DNA from: Longispora fulva | GTDB taxonomy: Bacteria; Actinomycetota; Actinomycetes; Mycobacteriales; Micromonosporaceae | NCBI RefSeq assembly: GCF_015751905.1 | Contig: NZ_JADOUF010000001.1 | Coordinates: 2,604,001 to 2,668,000, forward strand | Reading direction: 5' to 3' | DNA length: 64,000 nucleotides | In this document: in pieces, positions 1,507-59,620 of the stretch | How the letters are laid out: every line of letters starts with the position of its first letter | How positions within the stretch are numbered: the stretch's first letter is position 1 | The notes under the pieces: model-generated | Databases searched by the model: none | The model's input: the letters and a program-made list of their open reading frames with translations, nothing else | What the model was told of the DNA's origin: nothing | Program-made: the position numbers and the translations under genes

Positions 1507-2169
1507 GTGTCTCAAATCTTTCTCGCAGTGTTCCTCATGGTCGTGTTGCCCGGGGCCGCGCTGCTCATGGCGTACCGCGAACACGTCCACAACGGCCGCA
1601 TCCACACCCTGCAACACCAGCTCCACCTCGCCCTGTGGGCCGCCTCCCACGACGCGCTCACCAAACTGCTCAACCGGCGCGGCGGCCTCCAGCAGCTCAC
1701 CCACGCCCTGTCGGGGGAACAGCGCGTGTCCGTCGTCATGCTCGACCTCGACAAATTCAAGGCAGTCAACGACAACCTCGGCCACCACGGTGGCGACAAA
1801 CTGCTCGTCCAGGTCGCCACACGCCTCGAAGCGCTCGGCGGGCGGGTCGCCGACGTCGCCCGACTCGGCGGCGACGAGTTCTTCCTCATCGTCAACGGGA
1901 TCGGCGACGAGGCCCGCATCGCAGCCCACGCCGCCTGGCGGGCCATCGCCGACGAACCGTTCCTCATCGACGGTCACAAGCTGCGGGTCACCGCCAGCAT
2001 CGGCGTCGCCAGCCACCAACTCGGAGCCGACGCCATCCGCATGATCACCAACGCCGACTACGCACTGTTCACCGCGAAACACTCCGGCGCGCCGGTGTGC
2101 GTGCACACGGTCGGCGAGCCGCCCATCGGCAACCGGCCGGCCGTTCGCCGCCGCGACCGCAACACGTAG
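1507..2169 (+). CDS. Membrane-anchored GGDEF-domain diguanylate cyclase
   Basis: 220 residues from GTG 1507, chosen because AAGGAG at 1493-1498 lies 8 bases upstream and because it places a hydrophobic anchor (residues about 3-23) at the N-terminus. A short helical linker follows, then a GGDEF domain (about 45-200) with LLNRRGG, the metal-binding MLDLDKFKAVND, and an intact RLGGDEFF signature at residues 121-125. The family makes cyclic di-GMP from two GTP. The inhibitory RxxD site normally found five residues before GGDEF is not in register here, so product inhibition may be absent. There is no sensory domain beyond the anchor. A cyclase among element-type genes suggests the element alters host lifestyle or transfer (inference). 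Confidence 0.88.
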   Translation: MSQIFLAVFLMVVLPGAALLMAYREHVHNGRIHTLQHQLHLALWAASHDALTKLLNRRGGLQQLTHALSGEQRVSVVMLDLDKFKAVNDNLGHHGGDKLLVQVATRLEALGGRVADVARLGGDEFFLIVNGIGDEARIAAHAAWRAIADEPFLIDGHKLRVTASIGVASHQLGADAIRMITNADYALFTAKHSGAPVCVHTVGEPPIGNRPAVRRRDRNT

Positions 2170-2369: not shown

Positions 2370-2933
2370 GTGAACACCACCCAACCGACCAGCCCCGGCC
2401 ACACCACGAAACTCGTGGCCGCGATGGGCGACCTGGGCCCCACCGACGCCAGAACCCTGTCCGAGGCGGCAGGCGTGCCGTACTCCACCACCGTCAAAAG
2501 ACTCCGCGACTGGACGGCTACGGGACAGATCACCAAGATCGAACGCGGCAAGGAGGCCGCCCACTTCGCGCTCCTCGACGGGACCGCCCCTGAAGTTGCC
2601 CCGAGCATGACGGGAGCAGGGATCCCCGCCGAAGGAAACGCGACACAGTCCCCCGATCCCGCAGGCGTCGAACCAGCGCCGGGCACCGATCAGGCCGGCC
2701 GGCGCAAACGCGGCGTTCTGCGTGACGCGGTGCTGCAGGTTCTCCGCGACAACCCCAGCCAGGACTTCAAGGTCATCGAAGTCTGCCGGGTACTCGAACG
2801 CAACCTCCTCGCCACCGGCCACGGCACCAGAAAGGTCAGCTCCGGGGCGGTAGCCAACGCACTGGCCACCTTCGTCGTCTCCGGCGACGTCGTACGAACC
2901 GTCGAAAGACCGGCCACCTACAGGGCCGCGTGA
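2370..2933 (+). CDS. Tandem winged-helix DNA-binding protein
   Basis: 187 residues from GTG 2370, with AGGAGGT about 8 bases upstream. The N-terminal half (about 10-75: TDARTLSEAAGVPYSTTVKRLRDW..GQITKIERGKEAAHFAL) is a winged helix like those of MarR/ArsR-type proteins. A Pro/Gly-rich linker joins it to a second winged-helix-like region (about 115-185: RDAVLQVLRDNPSQDFKVIEVCRVL..VSSGAVANALATFVVSGDVVRTVERPATY). It may regulate the cluster or act in replication or partition of an element. The stop overlaps the upstream extension of the next frame. The wing-and-helix pattern is shared with the N-terminus of the MoxR protein at 41488, which hints that both regions belong to one family of elements. 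Confidence 0.72.
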   Translation: MNTTQPTSPGHTTKLVAAMGDLGPTDARTLSEAAGVPYSTTVKRLRDWTATGQITKIERGKEAAHFALLDGTAPEVAPSMTGAGIPAEGNATQSPDPAGVEPAPGTDQAGRRKRGVLRDAVLQVLRDNPSQDFKVIEVCRVLERNLLATGHGTRKVSSGAVANALATFVVSGDVVRTVERPATYRAA

Positions 2934-3032: not shown

Positions 3033-3104
3033 ATGCGAAACGACATCCCCACACCCGCCGCCGGTACCCGCGCCCAACTCCAGCCGCTCGTGGGTGCGTC
3101 GTGA
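3033..3104 (+). CDS. 23-residue mini-ORF coupled to the cell-wall hydrolase gene
   Basis: ATG 3033 follows GGAG (3023-3026) at 6 bases and encodes MRNDIPTPAAGTRAQLQPLV-GAS. Its TGA (3102-3104) overlaps the GTG start (3101) of the hydrolase as GTGA. The hydrolase start has no good Shine-Dalgarno of its own, so this mini-ORF probably serves to bring ribosomes to it. It could be a real small protein, but its sequence gives no function. A similar arrangement precedes the MoxR gene at 41411-41491. Confidence 0.5.
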   Translation: MRNDIPTPAAGTRAQLQPLVGAS

Positions 3105-4213
3105 CCGGGAAAGTCCTCGCCTTCATCGCCGCCGGCGTCCTGGGCCTGATCGTGGCCTGCGCAGGCCTCGCCGCCCTCACCGGTGGTGCCAGCGGCGGCG
3201 GCCTGTGTTCGCCCATGCCAACCCCAACACCGCACCCGCAGGCCAGCGCCAGCCCCGGTTCGACCACGACCGGCATCACCCCCCGACTCGCTCCGTCCGC
3301 CGGCGCGTGGCCACCGGTCGGGCCGTGGAGCAGCGAGCAGGTCTCCAACGCCGCGACGATCACCGCCACCGGTCAACGCCTCCGGGTCCCGCCACGCGGC
3401 TGGATCATCGCCGTGGCCACCGCCATGCAGGAATCCGCGCTCCGCAACCTCGGCGACCTCGGACCCGACAACGACCACGACAGCCTGGGCCTGTTCCAAC
3501 AACGCCCGTCCGCAGGCTGGGGCACCCCGGCACAGATCATGGACCCCGTCCACGCGAGCACCAAATTCTACGAGAAGATGCTCACCATCACCGGCTGGCA
3601 GAACCTGCCGCTGACCGTCGTGGCGCAGACGGTGCAGGTCAGCGCGTACCCCGACGCCTACGCCAAACACGAGACCCCGGCAACCCAGCTTGTCGCCGCC
3701 CTCACCGGAGTGACCGGGTCCGTCGGGGCATGCGGCGGCTCCATCGGCCCGATGGGTTGGACCCAACCGGTGCGAGAACCGGTCACCAGCGGATTCGGGC
3801 CACGCGGCCCCGAACACATCCTGCACGCCGGCGTTGACCTCGCCTCGCCGAAGGGCACCCCCATCCACGCCGCCGCCGCAGGCACGGTCACCGTCGCCGC
3901 CTGCAACGCTCCCCCCAACTGGGGCTGTGACCGCGACGGCTCAGAACGTCTCCCCGGCTGCGGCTGGTACGTCGACATCGACCACGGCTCCGGCATTCTC
4001 ACCCGCTACTGCCACATGCTCGCCCGCCCCTCCGTAACCGTCGGACAGCAGGTCACCGCTGGACAGATCATCGGGATCACCGGCAGCTCCGGCAACAGCT
4101 CAGGCCCACACCTTCACCTGGAGGTCCACCTCGGCGGCGACGGGACAAACGCCGGAGCCGTCGACCCCGTGCCCTACTTCGCAGCACGTGGCGCCCCACT
4201 CGCCAGCCCCTGA
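3101..4213 (+). CDS. Bifunctional lytic transglycosylase-like / M23 endopeptidase, membrane-anchored
   Basis: 370 residues from GTG 3101. An N-terminal membrane anchor (about 5-27, ending near a Cys) is followed by a Pro/Ser/Thr linker. Next comes a lysozyme-like domain (about 95-205) with MQESALRNL; Glu111 is the likely catalytic acid, followed by SLGLFQQRPSAGWG. The C-terminal M23 domain (about 220-365) has the zinc ligands in HAGVD (His242, Asp246) and HLH (His337, His339). Such enzymes cut glycan strands and peptide cross-links of peptidoglycan. Two-headed wall hydrolases of this type are commonly the wall-opening component of Gram-positive conjugation systems, which fits the neighbours. 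No VirB4 or relaxase is in the window, so the transfer role is inferred. Confidence 0.87.
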   Translation: MTGKVLAFIAAGVLGLIVACAGLAALTGGASGGGLCSPMPTPTPHPQASASPGSTTTGITPRLAPSAGAWPPVGPWSSEQVSNAATITATGQRLRVPPRGWIIAVATAMQESALRNLGDLGPDNDHDSLGLFQQRPSAGWGTPAQIMDPVHASTKFYEKMLTITGWQNLPLTVVAQTVQVSAYPDAYAKHETPATQLVAALTGVTGSVGACGGSIGPMGWTQPVREPVTSGFGPRGPEHILHAGVDLASPKGTPIHAAAAGTVTVAACNAPPNWGCDRDGSERLPGCGWYVDIDHGSGILTRYCHMLARPSVTVGQQVTAGQIIGITGSSGNSSGPHLHLEVHLGGDGTNAGAVDPVPYFAARGAPLASP

Positions 4214-39433: not shown

Positions 39434-39848
39434 GCCCCCAACATCACAGGGAAGATGCCTGCTCGCAACCTATTTAGGCGGTTGAATCTCACGGCCTGAC
39501 CAGGCCCGCCTACCCAGCTGACGGCTCGACTCCAGGGACTATTCCGGTGATCCCGCGGCCACGCCCGCCACTGGCGGAGGGCCAGTCTGACGCCCACCCA
39601 CCGCACGTCAGCCCGGCCGCAGCGCGGCCGTGGCACTCCCCACCGACCACTTCCAGGTCCATTGACGATCGCCAAGGCTGCCAAGGCACATAGCCGCTGA
39701 GAGGAAGCGGAAAACGCCCCAGGCGAGCACCTCGCCGACTACGCGATGAGTACCCAGGGATGGGTGCGGAGCCCGATTGTTCCGCTGCCGAACGGTGAGC
39801 GGAAAGGCAGATGCGCTGCGATGGCGCACCGTAGTGAAAGGAAATCAC
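39434..39848. other. Spacer with a possible 37-residue leader ORF
   Basis: 415 bases with no recognised gene. ATG 39746 opens a 37-codon frame (MSTQGWVRSPIVPLPNGERK..) that runs past the next start and ends at 39859. It could be a leader of the small gene at 39849 but has no convincing ribosome site. The promoter for the plus-strand cluster that begins at 39849 is expected here. Confidence 0.35.
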
Positions 39849-40031
39849 TTGTCCTGTAAACCGCAAACACGGGCAGTCCTCGACACGCACACAGGCGTGG
39901 TCGCGGGGCCTCAGGCGCACTTCGGCGCGCCGACCAATCCGTTCCGCGACGCCGCCGTGGACGGGTTCACCGACATGCCGGACCAGATGGTCAGCCTCTG
40001 CGGCCATGGCATCGGTGGAGGCGTGCGATGA
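39849..40031 (+). CDS. 60-aa small protein at the head of the MoxR/VWA cluster
   Basis: TTG 39849 follows an AAAGGAA ribosome site; GTG 39834 is an alternative start. Encodes L/MSCKPQTRAVLDTHTGVVAG...NPFRDAAVDGFTDMPDQMVSLCGHGIGGGVR. It ends in TGA overlapping ATG 40028 (ATGA). Composition is coding-like, with acidic and polar residues and two Cys. No family recognised. Confidence 0.5.
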   Translation: MSCKPQTRAVLDTHTGVVAGPQAHFGAPTNPFRDAAVDGFTDMPDQMVSLCGHGIGGGVR

Positions 40032-40141
40032 CCGGTCTGCCCATGCGTCCTGTCCCCGGATCCGGCCCTGCGCCTGCCGGCCATCACAGTCCGCAGCACC
40101 CCACCGGGTCCTGCTTGTCCTCTTCGATTGGAGCTGCGATC

Positions 40142-41140
40142 ATGCCCGCTGTCCTCTTCCGTTTTCCGCTGGCGGCGGTCCTCGGCTTGTCCGAGCACGC
40201 GACCCTCTCACCCGACCACGCCGTCACCGCCGACCGGACGCTGCCCGGCCCAGCGCTGATACTGCGAACCGGCAAGGTGACGACCCTGGCCTCCAGTGGC
40301 CGCAACAACCCGCACAGTGACCCCGTCGCCCCGGTCCCGGCTGAACCAGGCCCCGACGGCGATGCGGCCCGGCCCGCGTCCGAACACATCCTGGACCTCG
40401 ACGCTTCCATACCGATGACGCTTCACGGAGTGCGCGAACCCCAGCCGTTGCCGCTGAGCAGCCAGTTGCACATCGCCCACACCATGGGCTGCGCCTTCAT
40501 GGAGATCGAGCTGACGGCCACCGGACCCGTCATCGGGTACACCATGCCGCGACCATCCGACGCGCACACGACCGGGCAACGCCTCGTCAACGTGAACAAC
40601 CGCGCCTTCCAACGGTTCCTGGCACTGCTCCCCGACCACTTCGACGTCAACCGCTGGGAGATCCCGGACACCGGCCAGACAGTCGCGGTTCTGCTCACCG
40701 ACGCGGCGAGCGGGGACTCGTTCCAGGTGGCGTTTCTGGACTCCGCCGAACCCGCGGCGCCGAGTGTGCTGATCACCATCGACCTCAGCGGTGCCGTGCG
40801 CGCCGTCGGCGTCTACCCGTCGCAGGATTCCGCCGCCGACTCCGCCGACGATATCGCCGCGGCCGATGAGAGCGTCGCGATGTCCGTGGCGCTGATCCTC
40901 AACGACCCGGTCGCTGCGGGCGCGTGGCTGCCGGTCACCGGACACATCGTCGAGGTGGTTCACCAGCCCGACGAGGACTTCGAACGCGCGGTCGTGCTGC
41001 TCGTCGACCACGCCCGCCTGCAGCTGGCCGCCACCGGCCCGTTCCCCGACCGCGCGTCGGCTGAGGCGTTCGCGGCCCAGGCCGGCCGTGGCATCGGCCG
41101 CATCGTCGCGCCGCTGCGCGACGCCCAGCCGCCGTTCTGA
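40142..41140 (+). CDS. Unknown protein of the MoxR/VWA cluster
   Basis: 333 residues from ATG 40142, chosen because GGAG lies 8 bases upstream; ATG 40028 (370 residues, coupled to the small gene) is an alternative. After a short hydrophobic start (MPAVLFRFPLAAVLGLSEHA), the region from about 100 to the end (LPLSSQLHIAHTMGCAFMEIEL, RLVNVNNRAFQRFLALLP, VAVLLTDAASGDSFQVAFLD, SVLITIDLSGAVRAVGVYPS, GAWLPVTGHIVEVVHQPDED) is rich in beta strands and has no recognised motif. It ends in a terminator hairpin. Same orientation as the ATPase and VWA genes. Confidence 0.7.
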   Translation: MPAVLFRFPLAAVLGLSEHATLSPDHAVTADRTLPGPALILRTGKVTTLASSGRNNPHSDPVAPVPAEPGPDGDAARPASEHILDLDASIPMTLHGVREPQPLPLSSQLHIAHTMGCAFMEIELTATGPVIGYTMPRPSDAHTTGQRLVNVNNRAFQRFLALLPDHFDVNRWEIPDTGQTVAVLLTDAASGDSFQVAFLDSAEPAAPSVLITIDLSGAVRAVGVYPSQDSAADSADDIAAADESVAMSVALILNDPVAAGAWLPVTGHIVEVVHQPDEDFERAVVLLVDHARLQLAATGPFPDRASAEAFAAQAGRGIGRIVAPLRDAQPPF

Positions 41141-41203
41141 CCCGAACCACCGGGCCCATACGGCTTCGCCGCGCACTCCCATCGACAAACGCGTACCACC
41201 CGA

Positions 41204-41227
41204 GCCGCCCTGTGGGCGGCCATTTTG
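41204..41227 (+). terminator. Intrinsic terminator after 40142-41140
   Basis: GCCGCCC (41204-41210), loop TGT, GGGCGGC (41214-41220), followed by CATTTTGT (a short T run). Textbook rho-independent form. Confidence 0.8.
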
Positions 41228-41304
41228 TGCGCGGCGACGGGGACTGCCTGTGACCGCTGTACCGGTCCCCTGACCTGACCCTCTGTCCCTTCTAAACGCT
41301 TCGC

Positions 41305-41384
41305 GGGCATGCCTCCTTGCCTGCGCGGCGAGGAGGCATGCCCGACGACGGCACCCCGGCCCCGCCGCGGGTCGCGGCGGGGCC
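41305..41384 (+). repeat. Two strong hairpins preceding the MoxR gene
   Basis: The first stem is 13 bp, GGGCATGCCTCCT (41305-41317) with AGGAGGCATGCCC (41331-41343). The second stem is 12 bp, GGCCCCGCCGCG (41358-41369) with CGCGGCGGGGCC (41373-41384), loop 3. A TTTCACCCAAGGAGG leader and start follow. The first hairpin contains an anti-Shine-Dalgarno-like AGGAGG on its right arm. Confidence 0.7.
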
Positions 41385-41410
41385 TCCCTTTCACCCAAGG
41401 AGGCACTCTC

Positions 41411-41491
41411 GTGCGCGTACAACGCTCCGGCTCCCAAAGTCGGCCGCAACCCGCAACCCCGACCGGCACTGCTGGGCGGGGGCGGCGATGA
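41411..41491 (+). CDS. 26-residue mini-ORF coupled to the MoxR gene
   Basis: GTG 41411 lies 7 bases after AAGGAGG (41397-41403), the best ribosome site in this cluster. It encodes VRVQRSGSQSRPQPATPTGT-AGRGRR and ends with TGA 41489-41491, overlapping the MoxR ATG (41488) as ATGA. MoxR's own upstream region has only a weak G-rich site, so translation of the ATPase probably depends on this mini-ORF, as for 3033-3104. Confidence 0.5.
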   Translation: MRVQRSGSQSRPQPATPTGTAGRGRR

Positions 41492-42588
41492 CCCATCCCG
41501 CCTCGCCGCCCGGCATGACCAGGACCGGCCTGCCCAGGCTCAAGCCGGGCGAACTGCAAGACGAGATCGTCCGGATCATGGCCGGCGAACCCGACAGGTC
41601 GTTCACCGCCCGCGACATCAACGTGGCGCTGCCGGGACGCTCGACCGGCGCCATCGGACAGGCGCTACCCGCCCTGGTCGCCCAAGGCCGCATCGTGGCC
41701 ACCAGCCGCAACTCCTACCAGGTCGCCTCCGCCTCCACCATCGCCCCGATACCGGTGCCACCACCGGCCCCGACGCGGCCTCCCGCCAAGGCGGGGCCGA
41801 TCCGCCGGCCTGGCGGAGGCCTGTACTACCCGCGCGACCTGGCCGGCAAGCCCGACGTGCAGGTACTGCGCGAGCTTCGGACCGCCGACATCCCGGTCCT
41901 GCTGTACGGGCCGCCCGGCACCGGCAAAACCAGCCTCATCGAGGCCGCGTTCGGCGCCGAATGCCACACCCTGGCAGGTGACGGTGACACCACCGTCGGG
42001 GACCTGCTCGGCGACTACGTCCCCGACGGCGGCGGCTACCGGTTCGTCGACGGGCCACTGGTCGCCGCGATGGAGACCGGCGGCGTGTTCTTCCTCGACG
42101 ACGCGACCCTCATCTCCCCCAAAACCCTCGCGGCGCTGTACCCGGCGATGGACGGCCGCCGCGAGATCACGGTCAAAGCCGACGGCTCCCGCGCCGTGAA
42201 GGCGGCGCCCGGGTTCTTCGTGGTCGCCGGCCACAACCCCGGCGTGCACGGCGCGATCCTGACCGAGGCCCTGGCCAGCCGGTTCACCATGCAGATCCAT
42301 GTCACCACCGACTACGACCTGGCCGTGCAACTCGGCGTCGACCGCCGCCTCGTTAGGGCCGCCCGCGAACTGTGGGCCAAAGTCGGCGCGCACGAGATCG
42401 GCTGGGCGCCCCAGCTCCGCGAACTCCTCGGCGCGCTGAAAGTGCAACGCGCGCTGAGCCTGGACGTCGCCGTGGCCAACCTCGCCGGGGCCTGCCCGGA
42501 GGAGGACCGCGATGTCGTGCGCGAGGTGCTCAGAAAGCACCTGCCCAACATCGCCGACCAGCCGCTGACGCTCGGCAAGCAGCTCTAA
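41488..42588 (+). CDS. Winged-helix / MoxR-type AAA+ ATPase
   Basis: 366 residues from ATG 41488. Residues about 15-80 (KPGELQDEIVRIMAGEPDRSFTARDINVALPG then QALPALVAQGRIVATSRNSYQVA) form a winged-helix DNA-binding-like domain. After a Pro-rich linker the MoxR domain (about 120-360) has Walker A YGPPGTGKTSL (near residue 140), Walker B VFFLDDATLI (near 199), and sensor VVAGHNPGVHGAILTEALASRFTM. MoxR ATPases remodel or insert cofactors into partner proteins together with VWA-domain proteins. The metallopeptidase-VWA protein encoded at 43302 is the expected partner. Fusion of a DNA-binding-like domain to a MoxR ATPase is unusual. Confidence 0.88.
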   Translation: MTHPASPPGMTRTGLPRLKPGELQDEIVRIMAGEPDRSFTARDINVALPGRSTGAIGQALPALVAQGRIVATSRNSYQVASASTIAPIPVPPPAPTRPPAKAGPIRRPGGGLYYPRDLAGKPDVQVLRELRTADIPVLLYGPPGTGKTSLIEAAFGAECHTLAGDGDTTVGDLLGDYVPDGGGYRFVDGPLVAAMETGGVFFLDDATLISPKTLAALYPAMDGRREITVKADGSRAVKAAPGFFVVAGHNPGVHGAILTEALASRFTMQIHVTTDYDLAVQLGVDRRLVRAARELWAKVGAHEIGWAPQLRELLGALKVQRALSLDVAVANLAGACPEEDRDVVREVLRKHLPNIADQPLTLGKQL

Positions 42589-42620
42589 ACGCCCAAGCAC
42601 CCGTACCGAAAGGAATCACC

Positions 42621-43199
42621 GTGCTCGACCCTGAACTCGTCACCCACATCACCACAACGCTCACCGATATCGAAGCCTTCGCCGACGCGCGGCTCGGCTG
42701 GGACGCCCCGCCGCGCGCCTACGGCATCTTCACCCAGCCCGACGGAGGCGGCCGGGCGCTGCTCGTCGCCGCCCCGCTGCCCATCCGTGAAAGCCAGTGG
42801 CATCTGCCCGACCCGCAGCGGCCCGGCGTCAACCTGTCGGCGGCCCTCGTCCTCGGCGGCATCACCTTTCAACTGACCGAACCCGGCGCACCGGCATGGT
42901 TCGGCCGCTGGCTGACGAAGAACGGCCGGCAACTGGTGGCCACCGCGTTCCTGTTCGAGGGATACACGACCTCCGGCTACGCCGGCTACACCCCCGGCGA
43001 CCTCAACGAGTTCCCTGCCATGGCCGACGCCGAGGTCCGCATCATCGCGGCCATCGACATCGACGGGCGCGTCTGGCAGCTGGTGCGCCGTCGCGGCGAC
43101 AGCACGCCGGAACTGACCGTCATGGAACAGCCCCCGCCGGAAGTCAACGCGACGAACGTCATCTACGCCCTGGCCCGTCTCCTGGCCGCCCGCGCCTAG
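42621..43199 (+). CDS. Unknown protein between MoxR and VWA genes
   Basis: 192 residues from GTG 42621 (AAAGGAA upstream). Reads MLDPELVTHITTTLTDIEAFADARLGWDAPPRAYGIFTQ and later ITFQLTEPGAPAWFGRW, FLFEGYTTSGYAGYTP, VRIIAAIDIDGRVWQLVRRR. Mixed alpha/beta, no known motif. It shows similarity in style (Ile/Asp-rich strands, length, ending in NVIYALARLLA) to the protein at 40142, so the two may be related companions. Position between ATPase and VWA genes argues for a role in the same complex. Confidence 0.78.
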   Translation: MLDPELVTHITTTLTDIEAFADARLGWDAPPRAYGIFTQPDGGGRALLVAAPLPIRESQWHLPDPQRPGVNLSAALVLGGITFQLTEPGAPAWFGRWLTKNGRQLVATAFLFEGYTTSGYAGYTPGDLNEFPAMADAEVRIIAAIDIDGRVWQLVRRRGDSTPELTVMEQPPPEVNATNVIYALARLLAARA

Positions 43200-43241
43200 A
43201 TCCGCCACACCCCCGGCCCACCCGGCCACGACCGTCTCCCC

Positions 43242-43276
43242 GCGGGTGCCGGCCGGGCTGCCCGGCCGGCACCCGC
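43242..43276 (+). terminator. 16-bp hairpin between 42621-43199 and VWA gene
   Basis: GCGGGTGCCGGCCGGG (43242-43257), loop CTG, CCCGGCCGGCACCCGC (43261-43276): a perfect 16-bp stem. It is followed by CTTTCACCC and a GAAAGGGAA ribosome site, the same order as before the MoxR gene (41387). Confidence 0.75.
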
Positions 43277-43301
43277 CTTTCACCCGTGAAAGGGAACCTC
43301 A

Positions 43302-44990
43302 ATGTCCGCACACGTCACCCCCGCACCGGCGGTGCCCCATCCTCAGGTCGTGCCAGCCTGGCAGGCACTGTCTGACGCCTGGACCACGCAGGTCGCCGAC
43401 CTGGCCGAACGCCCCGACCTCACCGTCCTCGTCACGCCCGGCGCCGGACACGGCAGCCCGGCCTGCTACACACCCGCCGACGCCACCATCGAGATCAACG
43501 CCGACCACATCACGCTCGACCCCGCCACCATCGACCCGACCGATGACGCCAGCCGCCAGCTGTACCCCGTCGGCTGGGGACTACTCGTCCACGAAGCCGC
43601 CCACGCCCGCCACTCCCACTGGGGCTTCGGCGACCCCAGCAACCCGATGGCCACACGCGCCGCCGTCATGCTCGACGAAGCCCGCATCGAAGCCCAACAC
43701 CTACGCCGCCGGCCTGCGGACCGCCCGTTCCTGCACGCCGTCACGACCAAACTCATCACCGCCGAGATCACCGCCGACGACAACGTGTGGACCGCGGCCG
43801 CCGCCGCAGCACTCCTGCTCGCGCGGGCAGACGCCACCGTCCTCGACCACACCGAGGTACGCGGCGTACGCAAGTCCATCGAGAACATCCTCGGCCGTCG
43901 ACGGCTCAAACGGCTCGAAACGATCTGGCGGCGTGCCCTGCGAACCCGCGACGACGACACCGCCGCCATGATGGAATGGGGCCACCGCTGGGTGCGCACC
44001 CTCGGCCTGCACCCGTCCATCCCGTTCCCCCTACCATCAGGTGGAGGCAGCCTCGTGGCCGCCGTCGGCGCACTGCTCGACGCGATCGCAGACCAGCTCG
44101 CCGCCGACACCGGGCAGGCGCTCGCCGCACGGGCAGCGGCCGCCCGCGCCGCCATGCGCGACGCTGAACTCCAACGCCGCGCCGAGGCCGAACAGGCCGG
44201 CAACACAGTATTCGGGTCGCCCACGGCGGGAATCTGGGCCCGTGCCCCACAGGGACACACCCGCCCGGCCACCGAAGCCGAACGGTCGAGCGCCCGCCAA
44301 CTGAGCCGGGCACTCAAAGCCGCCGCCTACCGCGAACCGGTCACCACCCGCGTCACCTCGCCCACACCACCGGGCAGGCTCAACGCCAGGGCCGCGATGT
44401 CAGGCCACGTCCAGCGCCAACTCGGGCAGAACCCCACCACCGAGCCCTGGAGCCACAACCAGCGGCGCACAGTCCCCCAACCACCGCTGCTCGTCGCCAT
44501 CGCCCTCGACGTGTCCCGATCGATGGCCGGATTCCTACGACCAGCCGCGTCCACCGCCTGGATCCTCAGCCAGGCCGTCAGCCACGTCCCCGACGGCGCC
44601 TCCGCCCTGGTCACCTTCGGCAGCTACGTCACCGCCATCACCCACCCCGGCAAACCCTCGGCCGACGTCCGCGAAGTGCCCCTGGAACGATCCACCACCG
44701 GGTTCTGCACCACCATCGACGCCCTCGACCACAAACTCGGCCTGTCCCGCCGCGACCACGCCGCCCGACTGCTCGTCATCATCTCCGACGGATACCTACC
44801 CCACTCCGACATCCCCACAGGCCAGGCACAACTCGACCGGCTCGCCCGATCCGGCTGCGGACTCCTGTGGATCGGGCCCGTCAACTCCGCACCGCTGACA
44901 GGGACCGAGGTACTGCTCCTCGACGACGCCACCCACGCCGGACCGGCCATCGCCGCCGCGGCGACCAAAGCGTTGTCCAGCAGGAACTGA
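43302..44990 (+). CDS. Zinc-metallopeptidase-like / VWA protein (DUF2201-like), MoxR partner
   Basis: 562 residues. Residues 40-140 carry TIEINADHITLDPATIDP and LLVHEAAHARHSHWGF with a HExxH motif at His97-His101 (HEAAH); LDEARIEAQHL about 30 residues later can give the third zinc ligand. A helical middle region (about 140-380) has an Ala-rich stretch. The VWA domain (about 398-560) has MIDAS residues DVSRSM (Asp403, Ser405, Ser407) and VIISDGYLP, ending LLLDDATHAGPAIAAAATKAL. Metallopeptidase-plus-VWA proteins beside MoxR ATPases are a known pair (COG3864/COG0714-like); their cellular task is unclear. The cluster ends in a hairpin. The last 45 codons recur at 56220. Confidence 0.88.
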   Translation: MSAHVTPAPAVPHPQVVPAWQALSDAWTTQVADLAERPDLTVLVTPGAGHGSPACYTPADATIEINADHITLDPATIDPTDDASRQLYPVGWGLLVHEAAHARHSHWGFGDPSNPMATRAAVMLDEARIEAQHLRRRPADRPFLHAVTTKLITAEITADDNVWTAAAAAALLLARADATVLDHTEVRGVRKSIENILGRRRLKRLETIWRRALRTRDDDTAAMMEWGHRWVRTLGLHPSIPFPLPSGGGSLVAAVGALLDAIADQLAADTGQALAARAAAARAAMRDAELQRRAEAEQAGNTVFGSPTAGIWARAPQGHTRPATEAERSSARQLSRALKAAAYREPVTTRVTSPTPPGRLNARAAMSGHVQRQLGQNPTTEPWSHNQRRTVPQPPLLVAIALDVSRSMAGFLRPAASTAWILSQAVSHVPDGASALVTFGSYVTAITHPGKPSADVREVPLERSTTGFCTTIDALDHKLGLSRRDHAARLLVIISDGYLPHSDIPTGQAQLDRLARSGCGLLWIGPVNSAPLTGTEVLLLDDATHAGPAIAAAATKALSSRN

Positions 44991-44996
44991 CCCGCT

Positions 44997-45026
44997 GCTA
45001 CCCGGTCACGATTGTGGCCGGGTAGC
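44997..45026 (+). terminator. Terminator hairpin of the VWA gene
   Basis: GCTACCCGG (44997-45005) with CCGGGTAGC (45018-45026), loop 12. A homologous hairpin follows the duplicated VWA end at 56359-56390. Confidence 0.7.
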
Positions 45027-45134
45027 GCCGACCCACCACACCCCTGCTATCCGACGGCACCGTGCGCATCGATCTGCTGACCCTGTATTCCTGGCAGGCG
45101 ACCTGCACCGTCGCCTTCACTCCCACGCGAACCC

Positions 45135-45521: not shown

Positions 45522-46505
45522 CTATTCCGCCATTCGGAGAAGTATCTGCCGACAGAAAGAAACATCATCAGATAGCCCGATGTCGCTATTGTTGAATTTT
45601 ATTAACTCTAAGGCATTACCTGCCAAGTCAGCCATTGATGAAACTGTATTCAACCTACCATCAAATCCTATCGCAAGGACGGCACTCCTGACACCGAGGT
45701 GCTTTTGTTCCAAGCCCAATTCAAATCGACCGGCCTCTAGGTCGAATCCCGGCCCAACGAATACAAGGTCCAAAGCGTGTCTCGTACCGTAGCCGTTCAG
45801 CAGTTCGCCAAACGTTTGAGAGAATTCGATCACGCGATTGAAGGATCCTCCAGTAAGGAAGTCTTCCTCGGCATCTATGAGGAGGTCAATGAATATGTTT
45901 TCGCTCGGTGCGGTAACCAGGTCAATGTCCACAAGGGAATTGCGGTGATCCGCGAAACGGTCATGCACGCTTTCGCTTGACATGAGTTGGGCGCCTAGCA
46001 ACTCGGACGCCAGTTCTCTGATGGTAACGGTGTGACACTTTGCCGCCCAGACCAATTCGGCGCGCGCTTCAAGCGTCTCACATTTATGAAGCGCGAGTAG
46101 GCAGACAGCAGCGATGGCCGGATCCCATTCCTTCCACCCCGACCGGAGCACTTCCGTAAGGGCCGAAATCGCATCCCAATACGCGGCGACGCCCTTCTCT
46201 ATTCCCTTTTTTAAGGATTCAGCTACCGCTTCATGATCATAGTTGGAAGGTGTGTCGATATCATGATGGTTGCCGACGAGAGCATCACACAGGATAGGGA
46301 CGCATCCTGGAGATGGTCTATGCCCCGCTAAATCAACGTACCCCATAAAGAGGGGCCATTCTTGAGCGAGCCATGTTTCTTTGAGCCGCTCCTCGATGAG
46401 TGGACTGATCTCACCAAATTCTTCGAGGCGATCAGCGCGAAGGTGCCTTCCACCGCTCTCGGAAACCAGGCGCTCAAGTCGAATATATTGAGACTCGTTA
46501 CTCAT
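45522..46505 (-). CDS. Putative immunity protein of the RHS toxin
   Basis: 327 residues, start ATG 46505 overlapping the RHS stop (ATGA). Base composition is clearly lower in GC than its surroundings, as expected for horizontally shuffled toxin/immunity cassettes. It is Leu/Glu/Asp-rich and mostly helical (RLEEFGEISPLIEERLKETW, AALLALHKCETLEARAELVWAA-like), then a beta/alpha end VRSAVLAIGFDGRLNTVSSM. No signal peptide, so it protects from the cytoplasm. No known immunity family recognised. Immediate placement after a polymorphic toxin is the main evidence. Confidence 0.8.
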   Translation of the reverse strand: MSNESQYIRLERLVSESGGRHLRADRLEEFGEISPLIEERLKETWLAQEWPLFMGYVDLAGHRPSPGCVPILCDALVGNHHDIDTPSNYDHEAVAESLKKGIEKGVAAYWDAISALTEVLRSGWKEWDPAIAAVCLLALHKCETLEARAELVWAAKCHTVTIRELASELLGAQLMSSESVHDRFADHRNSLVDIDLVTAPSENIFIDLLIDAEEDFLTGGSFNRVIEFSQTFGELLNGYGTRHALDLVFVGPGFDLEAGRFELGLEQKHLGVRSAVLAIGFDGRLNTVSSMADLAGNALELIKFNNSDIGLSDDVSFCRQILLRMAE

Positions 46506-49500
46506 GGCGCGCCGCCAATCACTCGACCCGTTAGAATGTTTCCGTTGAAGAATGCTACCGCGTCTCCACGCAAACCATACGCGATGTAGCCGCCATCCGC
46601 CTTTACATGGACAAGATTCGTGCCGCTCCCTACGGGCTGGAGCCCAAGAAATTCATCGTGCCATCCAAGCGGTCGATAACTTGGGATGTCCCCCCGCCTG
46701 CCAATTGATGGCTCATACATGCTTGAGGTGCTACCAGGGGTCAACTCAAATTCAATGAGAACGGTGTAATCACCGAATCGACCACGTTCGCCGTCGAGGT
46801 AACTGCGAGAGTACTCCCGGTTTCGCGTTGTGAAGATTTCCCTGTTTTTCCCACCACCTTTGAGCGAAAGTCCCTGATTTTGCATGAACCGTTCATACTC
46901 CCTCGCGCCCATTGAGCGATAGAAGCACTCCCGACCATTGTGCCAATACTCGCCATTGGAATCTGACTGGCACTGACTTTCCGTTTGCCCCGGCGAAACG
47001 ACGGGCGGCTTTCTGGGGTCTCCATCCGCGTTTGGTTGACTGCCCGGATCTTCCGACGGTACTGCGTTGACGATGCTGCCGAATCCACCAAGCAGCGTTT
47101 CTCCATCTTTGAGGACCGCGACAGAGCCTGGTCGGTCATTGGAGTCAACGAGGGGTGCGCGCAACAGATTGAGAATCCATTTAAGCGGGCCGGGTATCGC
47201 GTTTTCGTCACATGAACGGCCGCATAGGGGTGGCGGTGGGCATCCCATGACCGCGCAGTTTGTTCGGTCTGGACCATCGCCTCCACACTTGGAGCTTGCG
47301 AAATGGACCTCGCAGTATGTGGGGCCGTTCGTGCCCACTCTCGGCGGTGCCGGCGGACGTCCCGGATCGTTTTGGGGGTTGCGCCATCGGGCGTCGGGAT
47401 CTGAGCCGAAGAAGTAGTCCCACATGTTCGCCAAGCCCAGCCCCACGGCTGCGACCATGCCGCCGCCGGCGGCGCCACCGCCACCACCGCCCCCGGGTTC
47501 AGCACCGGTTCTGCCGCCAATAGGCGGCCCTGCACCCTGCAAAGTCATCCCCGCGCCGCCGTTCTTGCCGGGGTCCCAGAAATGGCCCGTGGGGTCGGTG
47601 CCGTTGACGGGGTTAGCGTTGGCGTAGGTGTAGCGGTTGGATTGTGCGGTGGGGATGGGGTCGAGGGTCCAGGTGTCGCGGCTGGTGAATGAGCCGGTGG
47701 CGGGGTTGTCCCAGCGGGCTGCGGCGTTGACGTACCCGGTGGCGGTGTCGGTCCAACCACTCTGGTAGCCGAGGAGGTTGGCCGCGCCGGTTCCCGCAGT
47801 CGGCTTGCCGAAGGGGTCAAAGCTGGTGGAACCGGTGACGGATCCGGTTGCCGGATCGAGGTTGGCGATGACGTCGTCGTGCGTGGCGTCACTCAGGAGT
47901 GCGCTGGCGGTGCTGCCCGCCTTCTGCGCGATGGGTTGTCCGGCGGCGTCGCGGGAGATGAGGCCTTCGGGGGAGGTGACGGCGTTGTTGGATAGGTCGG
48001 GGTAGCCGAAGCTGATGCCGTTGCGTTGTGCGGTGCGGCCAAGGGCGTCGTAGGTGTAGTTGACGGTGGCTCCGGCGTTGCCGGTGGTGCTGCGGAGCTG
48101 TTCGAAGGCGTCGTAGTTCGAGGTGCGGACCTCTGTGCCCCGGGTAGCGGTGGATAGTGCTCCGCGCGCCTTGTACGTCCAGGTTTCGTCGGGGTCTGTG
48201 CCGCCGGTGGCGGATTTGACGCGGTTGCGGGCGTCGTATGTGTAGGCGCGGGCGCCGACGGTGGTGCGGTTGGAGGCGGCGTCCCAGCCGTAGGTGGTCT
48301 GCACGCTGCTCGGCGTGGTCCAGGTCTTGAGGCGTCCGAGTCCGTCATAGGTGTAGGTGTTGGTTCCGCCTCCGACGACGCCGGTGGTGGTCTTCGTCAG
48401 GGTGCGGTCGGCGTCGTCGTAGGTGTACGTGGCCTTGGCCGCTTCGACGGTGCCGCCTGGTTTCAGGGTTGTGTGGGTGGTCAGCCGGCTGTAGGCGTCG
48501 TAACTGTACGTCTGGGATGCCTTGGTTGCTCCGCCGAAGCCGATGGAGGCCAGCTGGCCGTCGGACCTGTACGCATAGGTCAGTTGGCTGCCGGTCAGCG
48601 GTTCGCTGGCGGTGGTGACACGTCCTGCGAGGTCGCGCCCAAGAGTTGTGGTGCCGGCGGCGTCGGTACGGGTGGTGAGGTTGTTGTCACCGTCATAGCC
48701 GAACATCGCCGTGTTCACGCCGGTCGTGGCGGTGAGCAGTCCGCGGTCGTTGTAGGTGAACTGCGTCGCGCCGGCAGGTCCGCTAATGCTGGTGGTGCGG
48801 CCGAGTGGGTCGTAGCCGAAGATTCGATCGGTGGTGGTCGCTACAGTGCCGGCGCCAGTCTCCTTGGCAAGGCGACCGAGCCCGTCGAAGGTGCGGGTGC
48901 GGGTGACCGCGCCGGGGAGGAGTTCGGCGATCGGCTGGCCGGCGGCGTCATACGTGGTGGTCCAGGTGCGATCGTCGCTGTCGGTGTCGCCAGGGGTCGA
49001 CGGTTCGATGGTCGACGCCGGCTGGCCCCACGGGGTGTATGTGTAGTGGGTGGCGTTGCCGTTGCCGTCGACCATGCGGGTGCGCTGCCCGGCTACGTCA
49101 TAGCCCAACTGCACCGTGATGGGGGTGGAGGCGTCAGCCTTCTGCGTGACGGTGACCAGCTGCCCGGCGACGTTGTGACTGAAGTCGGTGACGTTGCCAG
49201 TGAAGTCGATCTCCTTGAACAGACTTCCTGCTTTGTTGTAGTTGTTGGTGCGGGTACGTGTCGATGCGGTGCCGTTGCCCTGTTCTGTGAGGGACAGTAG
49301 GTTGCCTGCCAGGTCGGTGGCGGCCGACTTCTTGTTGGACCACGTGGTGTCAAGTCCATAGTTCATTGTGGTCGAGGTGAGTCCGCCACGGGCGTATGCG
49401 AAGTCGGTGCGTCGGCCCGTGGGGTCAGTGACCTGGGTGACCTTGCCGGTCTTGTTGTAGGCCATCGAGGTCGTGCCGCCGGCGGGAGTGGTGATCGACA

Positions 49501-52500
49501 GGATGTTGCCGACCTGGTCGTACACCTTGGTTGTCGTGTAGTAAAAAGTCTGTCCGCCTACGCGCTCGGTGCGGGTGCCGGTTAGCTGGCGGCCTGCGGC
49601 TTCGTAGGTGGCCAGGCTTTGTGCGCCTGTCGGGTCGACTGTGCTGGTCTGGTCGCCGACACGGTTGTATCCGAAGGTCCAGACCGGGGATGTTGAGGAG
49701 CCTGCACCATCGGGGTCGGGCTCGGTACGGGTGAGCAGGTTGCCATACTTATCGTAGGTGAAGCTGGTGACTCGACCGAGCGGGTCGGTCTGCTGCAGAA
49801 CCTGACCTGTAGGCGTGTAGGTGGTGCGCGAAACCGGTGTGATCGCAGGCCCGAATGGCGGGGTGTAGGTGGGGAGAGTTACGGCTTTCGGACGCCCCAT
49901 GGCATCAACGTCGGTATGGGTGACGTGTCCGAACACGTCTTGAGCGTCGGTGACCTCGCCGAAGGTGTTGCGCCCGGTGGTGGAGATCGGCTGCACCCCA
50001 GTCTGTTTGACGCCTGCGGTCCAAATATCACGGGCGGTGCCTGTGGTCGTCACAGGCTGGCCAAGGGCGTCGTAGGTGGCCGTGGTGAGCCCGCCGAGGG
50101 GGTCGATGATGGAAGTGGGGAGGCCTCGGGTGTCCAGGACGTAGACGGTGGTCGCGTCTGTGAGGGTGCTGGTGGAGCCGGTTCGTCGGTCAGTGACGGT
50201 TTGTGCGGTGACGCGATCGGCGAGGTCGTAGGAGGCGACGGTGCCTGCATACTTCGTGGTGTCGTCGTAGCGGTCTGTTTTGAGCGGGTTGCCGTCGTTG
50301 TCGCGGGTGTAGATGGTCTTGTACTTCAGGCTGCCGGGTTCGATGGTCTCGCTGGTCTTGTAGCCAAAGGCGTCATAGGTGAAATCTACAGCGGCTCCGT
50401 TGGTGTCATATGTCTCCGATGTTTGCCCTGCCGCATCGTAGGTGAACTGGCGAGCTTGTACCGAGGTGAAGCCTCCGGCACCGTCGGGCTCGCCCAGCGA
50501 CATTGCGGCGCGAAGTCCGTCGGCCCAATACTCGTAGCTGGTCAGGCCTCCCCGGGCGTCCGTGGTAGACGCCAGTAGGCCGTTGTCGAGGTAGGCCCGG
50601 GACTCAAGAACCATGCGAAGGGCGGCGGGGTTCGTCGGGTCAACGCCGGCACCGACCGCTGCTGTTTCGATCAGCTGGCGGTTGTCGTTGTAACGCAGCT
50701 CGGTGACCAGGCCCGCCTTATTGGTGGCTTTTGAGACATCGCCGGCGTTATTCCACTCCTGGCTCGTCGTTGATCCGTCAGGGTCCGTTGAGGAGGTGAG
50801 GCGTCCGGCGCTGTCGAAGCCGTAGGTGGTGACGCGCGTGGCGTCACCACCGGTCGTGTCTGCCACGCTCTGCTTGACGACGTGGCCGAGCTGGTCGAAC
50901 TCGTAGGTGGTGACGGCAGTGTGCGTGACCGACGTGATCGGGTTGGTCACCCCGGTGCTGGTCACGGTCGCGGGCTGACCGAGCGCGTTGTACGTGGTCG
51001 TGACTCCGCCGTACGGAGTGCTCTTGGACGTGACGCGCCCGAGTGGGTCGTATCCAAAGGTGGTGACCAAACCGACGGGGTCGGTACTGGTGATCGCATC
51101 ACCTTTAGCGTCGTAAGTGTTGGTGGTTGTTTGCCCGATTTTTCCTGTGCTAACGAGTGGCAGTCCGGCGGGCACCGTTCCGCCGCCGACGGCAGTTTCG
51201 GTGCCAGTCGAGTAGGTGACAGTCTGAGTGGGGGCGACGGTTCCCGAGCCGACCAGGGGGTAGGTGGTTTTGGTGACCTGACCTGCGGCGTTGGTTTCGT
51301 AGGCCACTCGGAAAGTGGTATCGGTGGCTGAGGTCGAGCGTGCGTCGGCCTGCCACTGCAGCGTGTCGTTGCGAGGGTCGAATGCGTCGGCCGCATTGAC
51401 GTAGTACGAGCGGTAGCTGGTCTGACTGGAGTCCGATTCCCGGTGGGTGGTCGTGGCGATGACGTTGCCGCGGGCGTCAGTCTGGGTTTCGGTGACTTGG
51501 CCAATGGGGTCGGTGGTCTTGGAGACGAAACCTGCGGCGTTGTACTCCCAGGTCCGCGCTCCGAGGCCGTCTTCGCGTTTGGTGATCCGGCCGCTGTGTT
51601 CCGTGTCGTAGGTGTAGGAGATCTGTCCCCTGCTGTTGCTAGTGAGGGTCGCGGTGCGCTGCTTGTCGCCGACGGCCGTCTCGGTCAGGCCCCATGTGGC
51701 GCCATTGCGGTCGGTCATAGCGGTGAACCGGCCGGTGATGGCGTCATAGCCCACTTGTGCGGCAGCGAAGTTCCCGGGCTCGGTGACCTTCGTTAGGCGT
51801 GATCCCAGTCCGCGGGCTCCGTAGTGGGCAGCGACCTGGGCGGATCCCAGTTCGTGCTTGTAGAACGCAACGTCGTCGATATCACCGGTGAACGGGAACA
51901 TGCTCTTCCCCGCGATCCAACCGGCGACTGAGCCGTTGCCTACGGCGACGTCGCTCATGAGTAGGTGGGTAAGTGCGCCGGTCTTGGTCGCGACCTGCAC
52001 GCCGTCGAGGTAGAGCTCCTGGTGGGTGCCTCCAGCCGAGAGCACCATGTGGTGCCACTGGCTGTTGTCGACCCGGTTGACGCCGCAAGGGCCACCGCCG
52101 GCGGCGGTCCAGAACCCGGCGCACAGCTTCCCGTCGGTGCCCACGTACATCGGCACGTGGTCACCTGGTGCGACGTTGAGAGGGGTGTTCTGTTCGCTGA
52201 GGAGGACACCGCCCTGGCCGGGGTCGGTTTTGAACCACATCTCCAGAGCTAGTGACACCGAGCTGTTGATGCTGTTGACCGGCATGACCAGCGAACTGTT
52301 GGCAGCGGCGGAGAATCCGACCGCCGTGTCCGCCGAGCCGGGCAGTGCTCCGGGTCGAGCGAGTGTGACGCCCGCGTACAGGCCGTCTCCCTGTCCGGTG
52401 CTGCGCGCTGCGACGTTCTTCGCCGTGGTCCCGGACGGCTCGCCCATCGGGTAGTAGATCGACGGGTTGTCGTCGGCGATGACCGAGCGGTAGAACGATG

Positions 52501-56219: not shown

Positions 56220-56353
56220 TCGGACTCCTGTGGATCGGGCCCGTCAACTCCGCACCACTGCAAGGAACCGAGGTACTGCTCCTCGACGACGCCACCCAGG
56301 CCGGGTCGGCGATCGCCAACGCGGCGACCAAGGCACTATCCGACAGGACCTGA
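56220..56353 (+). pseudogene. Duplicated 3' end of a VWA gene
   Basis: Encodes GLLWIGPVNSAPLQGTEVLLL then DDATQAGSAIANAATKALSDRT-stop. This matches the last 45 codons of 43302-44990 with about 80% identity, and the bases after the stop also match through the hairpin. It is the stump of a second, related VWA gene fused to a permease stump. No intact N-terminal part is present nearby. Confidence 0.85.
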
Positions 56354-56358
56354 CCGGC

Positions 56359-56390
56359 CGCGACCCGGTCACGCTCGTGACCGGGTCGCG
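56359..56390 (+). terminator. Hairpin after the VWA stump
   Basis: CGCGACCCGGTCACG (56359-56373) with CGTGACCGGGTCGCG (56376-56390), a near-perfect 15-bp stem. It is homologous in position to 44997-45026. Confidence 0.75.
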
Positions 56391-56986
56391 CACCAGAGCT
56401 GACACCAACCGATCGGCCGCCGGCGGTGTGCCACCGACGGCTCCGGCAACGTGTGCGCCGCCTGGCCCTGCTCTGACAACCCCACCAGGGGACGTGTGCG
56501 GTGTCGCCCATTTGTCACCCGATTGTCAACGTCCACCGCCGGGCGATACAGCCCTTGAGATACCTCACGGGATAGCCCACACACGCATTTGATCATGTCT
56601 TGGGCTGCGGAAACGCCGTCAGGCGGCTCCTGTGGAGGGTGAGTGGGTTGGGTACCTCGCCGGCCGGCGAGCGGCTCGCAGCGCGAACGCCTCGCCCTAC
56701 ATACCGAAGCGGGGCCGGGAACTGCAGGAAGAGGTTGCTGGTGGGGTCGGCGCGTCGGGCGCACATGCTCGCCATCCTTCCGAGGTAGGCAACAGAAGCT
56801 GAAAGCCAGTGTTCTCAGAAAAACCCGAGCAGCACTCGTGTGAAAACACGGAAATTTCCCGGAACCTTCACGGAGCCCACGGCGGCGCCGGTTCCCTGCG
56901 AACAGGCCTGTTTTCTGTCGGATGGGGGCGATAGCGTACTTGTGTGGTGCCGGAGCGTGACCGGCCCTGGAAGGGAGGCTGTCGAG
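56391..56986. other. Spacer without a supported gene
   Basis: About 600 bases. Several overlapping open frames exist but none has consistent coding character. AT-richer stretch near 56800-56870 may hold the promoter of the 56987 gene. No repeats or RNA genes recognised. Confidence 0.4.
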
Positions 56987-59108: not shown

Positions 59109-59560
59109 TCAGCGGGTGCGCTCGCGCACGGGCACGTCGAGGCGGAAGAGGGCGTCGACCTGGGCGATGGTCAGGGCGCGGGTGGTGTCGACGGTGATCT
59201 TGGGTCGTGCCCATCCCGCTGTCGTGGCCGAGGCGAGCCGGCCGGTGACGGGCCACCAGCCGATCGCCGACCGCAGGGCGGCGAGGTGCCGGGCCCGGGT
59301 CGCGGGGGCTAGGTGGCCGAATCCGTGGTCGAAGGATGAACGCAAGACGGCGTTGCCCGCCGGGGTGTCCAAGGCAACGATCGGCAGGTGCGCACCGAGC
59401 CGGCCGAAGAGTGTGTGAGCGTCTGGCGGTGCTTGACCGCGGTGCCCTCGGCCCAGGCGGTGTCGAGCCGGCCGGCTTCCATCTCGGCGTCCTGCCAGGC
59501 GAGGGCGTCGAGGATCAGAAGGTGGCGTTCGGCGTCGCTGAGCCTGAACTGTTCGTTCAT
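59109..59560 (-). pseudogene. Tyrosine recombinase remnant
   Basis: ATG 59560 opens MNEQFRLSDAERHLLILDALA then WQDAEMEAGRLDTAWAEGTAV. A frame break near 59405 leads to RLGAHLPIVALDTPAGNAVL, ATRARHLAALRSAIGWWPVTG, RALTIAQVDALFRLDVPVRERT and a stop. This is the N-terminal SAM-like core-binding domain and the start of the catalytic domain of a site-specific integrase. The catalytic R-H-R-Y region is gone. Confidence 0.72.
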
Positions 59561-59620
59561 CGCCGGGACGCGGTCTTCACCGGGCGGCGGGGCCTGGATC
59601 AACGACGAGAGGAACTTAAA

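Follow-up and report, generated by a model that had tools for sequence, protein, structure and literature searches.

A winged-helix MoxR-type ATPase and a metallopeptidase–VWA protein as a conserved pair in the backbone of a predicted actinobacterial conjugative element

On what does an AAA+ motor act when it carries a DNA-binding-like domain and travels with a metallopeptidase–VWA protein? The question is raised by a locus of Longispora fulva lying in a stretch of 64,000 nucleotides, referred to here as the window, for which the original prediction had proposed a protein-remodelling or defence module of four genes on mobile DNA. Codon usage supports the four consecutive genes on one strand (window 40142-44990): companion A, the ATPase (AAA), companion B, and the VWA protein (VWA). 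The features considered are as follows.

1507..2169, + strand: GGDEF protein, element backbone
2370..2933, + strand: two-winged-helix protein (C3); C-terminal winged helix at residues 112-187
3101..4213, + strand: M23 peptidase, element backbone
40142..41140, + strand: companion A, 332 aa
41304..41344, no strand: inverted repeat between A and the mini-ORF, 18-nt arms, 94% complementary; putative terminator or attenuator
41358..41384, no strand: inverted repeat, 12-nt arms, 100% complementary, with CCTTTCACCC after it
41411..41491, + strand: mini-ORF of 26 codons, AAGGAGG upstream; stop overlaps the AAA start (ATGA)
41488..42588, + strand: AAA, AAA+ ATPase of MoxR/CbbQ/NorQ/midasin type, 366 aa; N-terminal winged helix at 41539-41733
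42621..43199, + strand: companion B, 192 aa; family signature R...A.D.D.R
43242..43276, no strand: perfect inverted repeat upstream of VWA, 17-nt arms, with CCTTTCACCC after it
43302..44990, + strand: VWA, metallopeptidase–VWA adaptor, 562 aa; HEAAH at 43590-43604, MIDAS DVSRSM at 44508-44525
44997..45026, no strand: inverted repeat past VWA, putatively terminator-like
56221..56391, + strand: remnant of a VWA gene 3' end, 171 bp, 86% identical to 44858-45028

The mini-ORF has a strong ribosome site and had been taken for a conserved leader. That idea is rejected: an ORF overlaps the AAA start in 3 of 22 other AAA loci, with differing lengths (40, 30, and 32 codons), in a survey where the AAA start call is doubtful in at least 3 of the 22. 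Gene models come from our own gene-calling script, and their starts are therefore approximate. The sequences at the hairpins are not widespread motifs either: CCTTTCACCC has 6 matches (2 exact) vs 3.6 expected, and GGCATGCCTCC has 3 matches outside its hairpin vs 2.3 expected.

The ATPase with its winged helix and the HExxH–VWA partner were read correctly from the start. AAA is a MoxR-clade AAA+ ATPase with a Walker A motif; it matches the AAA_5 profile at 6.8e-20, its nearest solved relatives are NorQ, CbbQ, and midasin, and the winged-helix model MarR_2 is matched at E 0.01 by 8 of 21 aligned AAA members. VWA carries both the HExxH motif and the MIDAS. The two histidines occur in all 131 aligned gene models of at least 450 aa, a set that omits shorter models and those unaligned at the motif and counts some genes repeatedly; the motif reads HExxH in 122 and HGxxH in 9, and the downstream Glu motif is conserved. 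The MIDAS column is aligned in 114 of the 131 models (the other 17 are unaligned there), every one of them D-x-[ST]-x-[ST]. The predicted structure places the HExxH helix at residues 89-104 and the Glu-bearing helix at 115-136. In a Foldseek search, the VWA domains of NorD and Rea1 top the list, and the listed VIA matches fall within residues 287-562; no metallopeptidase fold is among the listed matches, which cover chiefly the VWA half and so are silent on the fold of the N-terminal domain. A PDB search with the VWA profile gave 5 weak matches, which we read as chance. The genome holds one full-length VWA gene; the recurrence at 56.2 kb, once seen as a sign of a duplicated system, is the 171-bp remnant listed above.

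Which of the four genes belong together? AAA is followed by the metallopeptidase–VWA protein in 22 of 23 fetched loci, and VWA lies within two genes of AAA in 78 of 80 named loci, both misses being contig edges. The conserved unit is the AAA and VWA pair, not four genes. The predicted four-gene unit fails outside the window's own family, with A and B in 0 of the 80 named loci, and holds inside it: among 200 genomes, B occurs in 27, accompanied by VWA in 23 (Fisher p 1.2e-15), and A in 13, accompanied by VWA in 11 (Fisher p 3.4e-7), in tests that assume an identical 200-genome draw for all three family searches. In a genome of the same genus, G235, B is likewise placed between AAA and VWA. We regard A and B as optional, lineage-specific helpers of the pair within the window's family.

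Companion A is a predicted two-part protein: residues 1-138 show a 40% match to a separate 148-aa ORF in G235, and residues 143-332 match a family of about 203 aa located directly 3' of VWA in four fetched loci. Neither A nor B matches a family in Pfam, PADLOC, or PHROG at E 1. The suggestion that the two are paralogues found no detectable relationship behind it (hhalign probability 0.2%); since the profiles are shallow, a distant kinship may still exist. Two identities for B were rejected: membership of the PPA1309 family, to which a single one of 8 members gave one match below threshold (16.8 bits vs a cut-off of 70), and a class D beta-lactamase (19.8 bits vs 625).

Around the pair lie genes of integrative conjugative elements (VirB4-like, coupling-protein, Replic_Relax, M23, and Tad/LysM), which bears out the proposed mobile DNA; Replic_Relax (PF13814) is the only candidate relaxase gene seen near the pair. 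The TadA label denotes a T2SSE match, and the LysM-BTAD label reflects a BTAD match and, for the window's genome, a LysM hit below threshold. The remaining Tad genes, the integrase, and the recombinase were named by eye. The collinear element of G235 adjoins an integrase-like gene (named by eye) and tRNA-Lys, and a 44-nt repeat of the tRNA-Lys 3' half (40/44 identical, tested against shuffled two-base blocks) lies about 85 kb off. By these gene assignments, AAA and VWA are backbone genes of a predicted mobile element that occurs across soil-type actinobacteria. Described T4SS-type actinobacterial elements have in common with it a chromosomal T4CP and VirB4-like ATPase, and also an integrase, of which the integrase-like gene of G235 is a candidate counterpart; the term "TadA" is absent from the main text of that paper (PMC3218068).

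The window's locus itself could be a stranded remnant, the pair perhaps intact and the element immobile. This is a genuine possibility, if short of an even chance, and its probability stands apart from those of the other rivals because it bears on the copy in the window rather than on the family. Three stretches of extra DNA (about -19 to -11, about 4-5 to 40, and 45-100 kb) interrupt the order collinear with G235, and relatives of the G235 integrase are absent between -80 and +118 kb in the window's genome. On the other side, the four genes are open, and the VirB4-like protein (603 aa in the window vs 598 aa in G235, 82% identity) and T4CP (821 aa vs 849 aa, 79% identity) are about full-length relative to G235.

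A conjugative backbone also invites the view that the pair is an assembly chaperone of envelope machinery, responsible for inserting, maturing, or clipping components of the Tad pilus or the VirB4/T4CP channel. In many named loci the pair comes after Tad genes and a LysM-BTAD protein; such genes are present in 38 of the 48 named loci with full 10-kb flanks, a count that omits the other 32 of the 80. A virion-assembly role has been proposed for a jumbo-phage pair (PMC7824862). We nevertheless find this rather unlikely: several Nocardia loci have the pair and a BTAD gene with recognisable Tad genes absent from the fetched flank, the Tad genes of the window's family stand several genes from the pair on the opposite strand, and the winged helix is left unexplained. 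To our knowledge, phages have the pair without a Tad-type pilus.

The winged helix points elsewhere. The N-terminal winged helix of AAA is homologous to the C-terminal winged helix of the element's two-winged-helix protein (window 2370-2933), and because the domain is shared, the motor is probably recruited to the element's own DNA-protein complexes. We propose that AAA and VWA serve an integrative conjugative element of the T4SS/Tad type as its backbone motor and adaptor. AAA probably assembles into a ring of the MoxR/NorQ/midasin kind, VWA would grip the substrate through its MIDAS, and the HExxH domain of VWA could cut or clamp it. The winged helix would probably steer the motor to regulatory, replication, or transfer complexes of the element, where it may remodel or remove proteins. 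A protein-remodelling role, as first suggested, is likely; in a VWA/metallopeptidase remodeller directed to the element's own nucleoprotein complexes we place moderate confidence. In a narrower, unlikely version, the pair would be a switch: the ATPase, bearing a copy of its target's DNA-binding domain, would land on the two-winged-helix regulator, or pair with it, at the DNA sites of the regulator, strip or cleave it, and thereby start replication or transfer.

The other half of the original prediction, defence, fares worse. A module of the VMAP/iSTAND MoxR-vWA type, serving conflict as defence or exclusion, would share the MoxR-vWA couple; such ternary systems are described as widespread in actinobacteria and read as anti-invader (PMC7159879), some of their vWA proteins, in iSTAND systems, are fused to variable peptidase effectors, much like the HExxH-VWA protein (PMC12839542), and vWA-related systems lie close to CRISPR loci (PMC10910872). 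Yet PADLOC gives weak matches for AAA alone (best E 0.0013) and none for A, B, or VWA; A and B are without a Pfam model, so no third ternary component is recognised, and Pfam, PADLOC, and PHROG reveal no VMAP, iSTAND, FtsH, or beta-propeller in either companion. The surroundings are conjugation machinery, and companions differ between loci whereas the conjugation genes persist. We judge a defence role improbable.

Least probable is that the pair represents CobS/CobT-like cobaltochelatase subunits, or inserts a cofactor into an enzyme as NorQ/NorD do. Viral relatives bear the names "porphyrin biosynthesis" or "cobalamin biosynthesis protein", viral CobST has been argued to boost cobalamin (PMC8651126), and NorQ/NorD are among the nearest solved pairs. 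The sole CobN match in the genome, however, is at 4.61 Mb, about 2 Mb from the pair (2.65 Mb), the conserved neighbours scanned include no recognisable cofactor enzyme, and a DNA-binding-like domain is unexpected in a chelatase. NorQ/NorD, CbbQ/CbbO, and midasin/Rea1, whose ATPases are the nearest solved relatives of AAA and whose NorD and Rea1 VWA domains resemble the VWA fold, act on enzymes or pre-ribosomes; we know of none with an AAA-type winged helix or an HExxH domain.

Further counterparts of the pair occur in phages and conjugative elements. Jumbo-phage group 2.2 likewise combines a MoxR ATPase with a vWA protein whose N-terminal domain is a metallopeptidase; the parts of the report used here offer proposals and no demonstrated substrate, and its proteins are likened to ours by description (PMC7824862), whereas three fetched actinophage homologues have HExxH as in VWA. 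Our pair differs in belonging to an element backbone and in its winged helix, which is missing in five examined phage or plasmid ATPases, including those of phages DSL-LC01 and Phendrix, and was found in one plasmid record. In pCAR1, R478, Rts1, SXT, and R391, a block conserved among conjugative elements includes a VWA gene together with one for a MoxR-like ATPase of CbbQ type; these elements are proteobacterial, likened by description, and in the sections of the paper at hand winged helix and metallopeptidase are unmentioned (PMC2642839).

Large phages and conjugative elements repeatedly carry metallopeptidase-VWA/MoxR pairs, and a conserved T4SS/Tad backbone containing one is now laid out across Amycolatopsis, Lentzea, Nocardia, Actinomadura, and the window's own family. 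A winged helix common to the motor and an element regulator hints at where the motor may act, and an ATPase that shares a domain with a second element protein provides a concrete candidate partner and a candidate DNA site.

Four genes of the window lie in a row on the plus strand with coding support, as the original prediction held, and are accompanied by inverted repeats and a short open reading frame (ORF):

40142-41140, plus strand: companion protein A (332 aa), coding support
41304-41344 and 41358-41384: intergenic inverted repeats
41411-41491: mini-ORF of 26 codons, overlapping the start of AAA
41488-42588, plus strand: AAA, a MoxR-clade ATPase (366 aa), coding support
42621-43199, plus strand: companion protein B (192 aa), coding support
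43242-43276: intergenic inverted repeat
43302-44990, plus strand: VWA, a metallopeptidase-VWA protein (562 aa), coding support
44997-45026: intergenic inverted repeat

The mini-ORF does not behave as the conserved leader it was proposed to be: an ORF overlaps the AAA start in just 3 of 22 other AAA loci, with differing lengths (40 codons in L040, 32 in L047, and 30 in L050), and the AAA start call is doubtful in at least 3 further loci of the same 22.

The conserved core is the AAA–VWA pair. VWA was matched in 19 of 200 genomes drawn from the order, the window's own counted. AAA sits directly upstream of VWA in 22 of the 23 loci fetched at ~20 kb each, 1 of which (L045) has its VWA gene split across two frames; the 23rd (L053) holds a VWA fragment only. 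In a separate set of named loci, the best 80 of 219 relatives found in another scan, AAA is on the same strand and at most two genes from VWA in 78, with a called 100-aa ORF between them in L104; the two loci without AAA (L117 and L123) both begin at a contig edge. Neither A nor B was found in any of these best 80 (E 1e-3). Within the window's family, VWA occurs in 40 of 200 genomes (E below 1e-20, leaving out 6 more with weak scores), B in 27, 23 of them with VWA (Fisher p 1.2e-15), and A in 13, 11 of them with VWA (Fisher p 3.4e-7); 35 of 43 B hits and 13 of 16 A hits have a VWA gene no more than 20 kb away. The predicted four-gene set is thus linked within the family and absent from the named loci, and A and B are lineage-specific companions.

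The suggestion that A and B are paralogues found no support: the two have no recognisable relationship. In the same-genus genome G235, B likewise lies between AAA and VWA. A consists of two parts: the first 138 residues resemble a separate 148-aa ORF in G235, and the C-terminal part resembles a ~203-aa family located directly 3' of VWA in four fetched loci. On contig C7 of genome G291, which has no VWA match, A- and B-family genes lie ~2 kb apart.

The pair very likely resides in an integrative conjugative element. Upstream of the window are genes for a TrbL-like protein (PF19597, E 5.9e-6, just below the cut-off), PrgI (E 2.4e-14), a VirB4-like P-loop_TraG protein (E 9.9e-19), a TrwB-like coupling protein (E 1.9e-7), and two Replic_Relax proteins. 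The start of the window carries:

1507-2169: GGDEF gene
2370-2933: gene for a two-winged-helix protein, taken to be the element's own regulator
3101-4213: M23 gene

A LysM-BTAD/Tad cluster follows at ~+100 to +107.5 kb on the opposite strand. G235 has relatives of the element genes in the same order without long gaps, adjoining an integrase-like gene (named by eye) and a tRNA-Lys gene; a 44-nt imperfect copy (40/44) of the tRNA 3' half lies ~85 kb off and ends at the last base of the tRNA; one shuffle in 100 did as well as the copy's 15-nt exact core. The gene at L246:7551-9194 (contig C22, ~197.55-199.19 kb), serine-recombinase-like by eye, shares bases with the distal attachment-like repeat, and past it lies a further gene judged by eye to be Replic_Relax-like; G235 perhaps holds two elements in tandem.

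The window's copy carries additional DNA at ~-19 to -11 kb, ~4-5 to 40 kb, and 45 to 100 kb. Within it, two short protein fragments (5437-5619 and 21286-21555) look alike by eye (VRFHVF.G.TDA.QED.VLGEGLAM), the first matching L229/L241 at 65%. Short minus-strand ORFs at 59109-59602 resemble, by eye, a broken tyrosine integrase; the 59112-59372 piece has no Pfam match. The supposed duplicate system at 56.2 kb is a remnant of the VWA 3' end: 44858-45028 (the last ~130 bases of VWA plus the hairpin) recurs at 56221-56391 in direct orientation (171 bp, 86%). The copies flank a large YD-repeat gene (46502-55414, minus strand, named by eye) and its neighbor (45522-46505, minus strand), a possible mark of an insertion where the VWA gene ends.

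T4CP/Replic_Relax or Tad/LysM-BTAD genes accompany 45 of the 48 named loci with full flanks; L095 and L122 have none of the core element genes, nor do 4 control stretches. A role specific to Tad is weakened by several Nocardia loci that keep the pair with no recognisable Tad genes nearby.

Both genes also occur on Streptomyces, Pseudonocardia, and Rhodococcus plasmids and in actinophages (adjacent in DSL-LC01, one gene apart in Phendrix, and ~30 kb apart in Pumpernickel). A MoxR and metallopeptidase-vWA pair of jumbo phages has a proposed role in virion assembly (PMC7824862), and MoxR/VWA genes belong to a block common to pCAR1, R478, Rts1, SXT, and R391 (PMC2642839). Viral CobST has been read as cobaltochelatase subunits (PMC8651126); against such a reading here, the only CobN match in the window's genome is ~2 Mb away. 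MoxR-vWA ternary conflict systems are described (PMC7159879), and the best argument for the predicted defense module comes from iSTAND systems, where vWA proteins are fused to variable peptidases (PMC12839542); we found no specific support for defense. Titles and abstract openings in the open-access literature searched by keyword do not name a winged-helix MoxR/VWA pair in actinobacterial integrative conjugative elements.

A profile of the AAA N-terminal winged helix (residues 18-84), built from some of the models it was then run on, matches 99 of the 105 AAA gene models whose N-terminus is 100 aa or longer. The six exceptions are five phage or plasmid models, representing three genes, and one model on a Nocardia contig; the DSL-LC01 phage and Rhodococcus plasmid ATPases likewise give no match. 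By tblastn, alignments to the plasmid and phage ATPases listed mostly begin at ~residue 105; the plasmid record of Streptomyces sp. BHT-5-2 (2.8 Mb) is aligned across residues 1-366, which shows that it has the winged helix. The profile also matches 89 non-AAA gene models, in their C-terminal part among the 25 of 89 listed. Most of ten such proteins carry MarR/TrmB-type winged helices by Pfam scan, the window's 2370-2933 protein having a sub-threshold TrmB match only. The consensus sequences of both groups have R-S-S-G-A-V-x-N-A-L in common. In the window's genome, AAA (4.7e-21) and the 2370-2933 protein (1.3e-11) are the two best matches; a third, elsewhere, is weak (4.8e-5). The stand-alone winged-helix protein is labelled in 55 of the 80 named loci. 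It is present in 11/11 VWA-positive versus 6/20 VWA-negative genomes, and is therefore enriched with the element, not exclusive to it.

The catalytic Glu is missing in 9 of 131 VWA models, which have HGxxH in place of HExxH; these (L014, L018, L019, L025, L206, L216, L217, L219, and L224) retain the two His residues and the downstream Glu motif and are likely a group of inactive peptidases. All five A genes ~300 bp from VWA adjoin a VWA of this kind, a correlation that shared descent alone may explain. Loss of the Glu suggests that remodelling, rather than cutting, is the constant part of the function. We favor a remodeller belonging to the element backbone, a reading about as apt to fail as to hold. 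AAA would form a MoxR-type ring, VWA would capture the substrate, and the winged helix would bring the motor to DNA or to a partner used by the element's regulator, where a nucleoprotein complex would be remodelled or cut. The module common to motor and regulator is the most informative new point.
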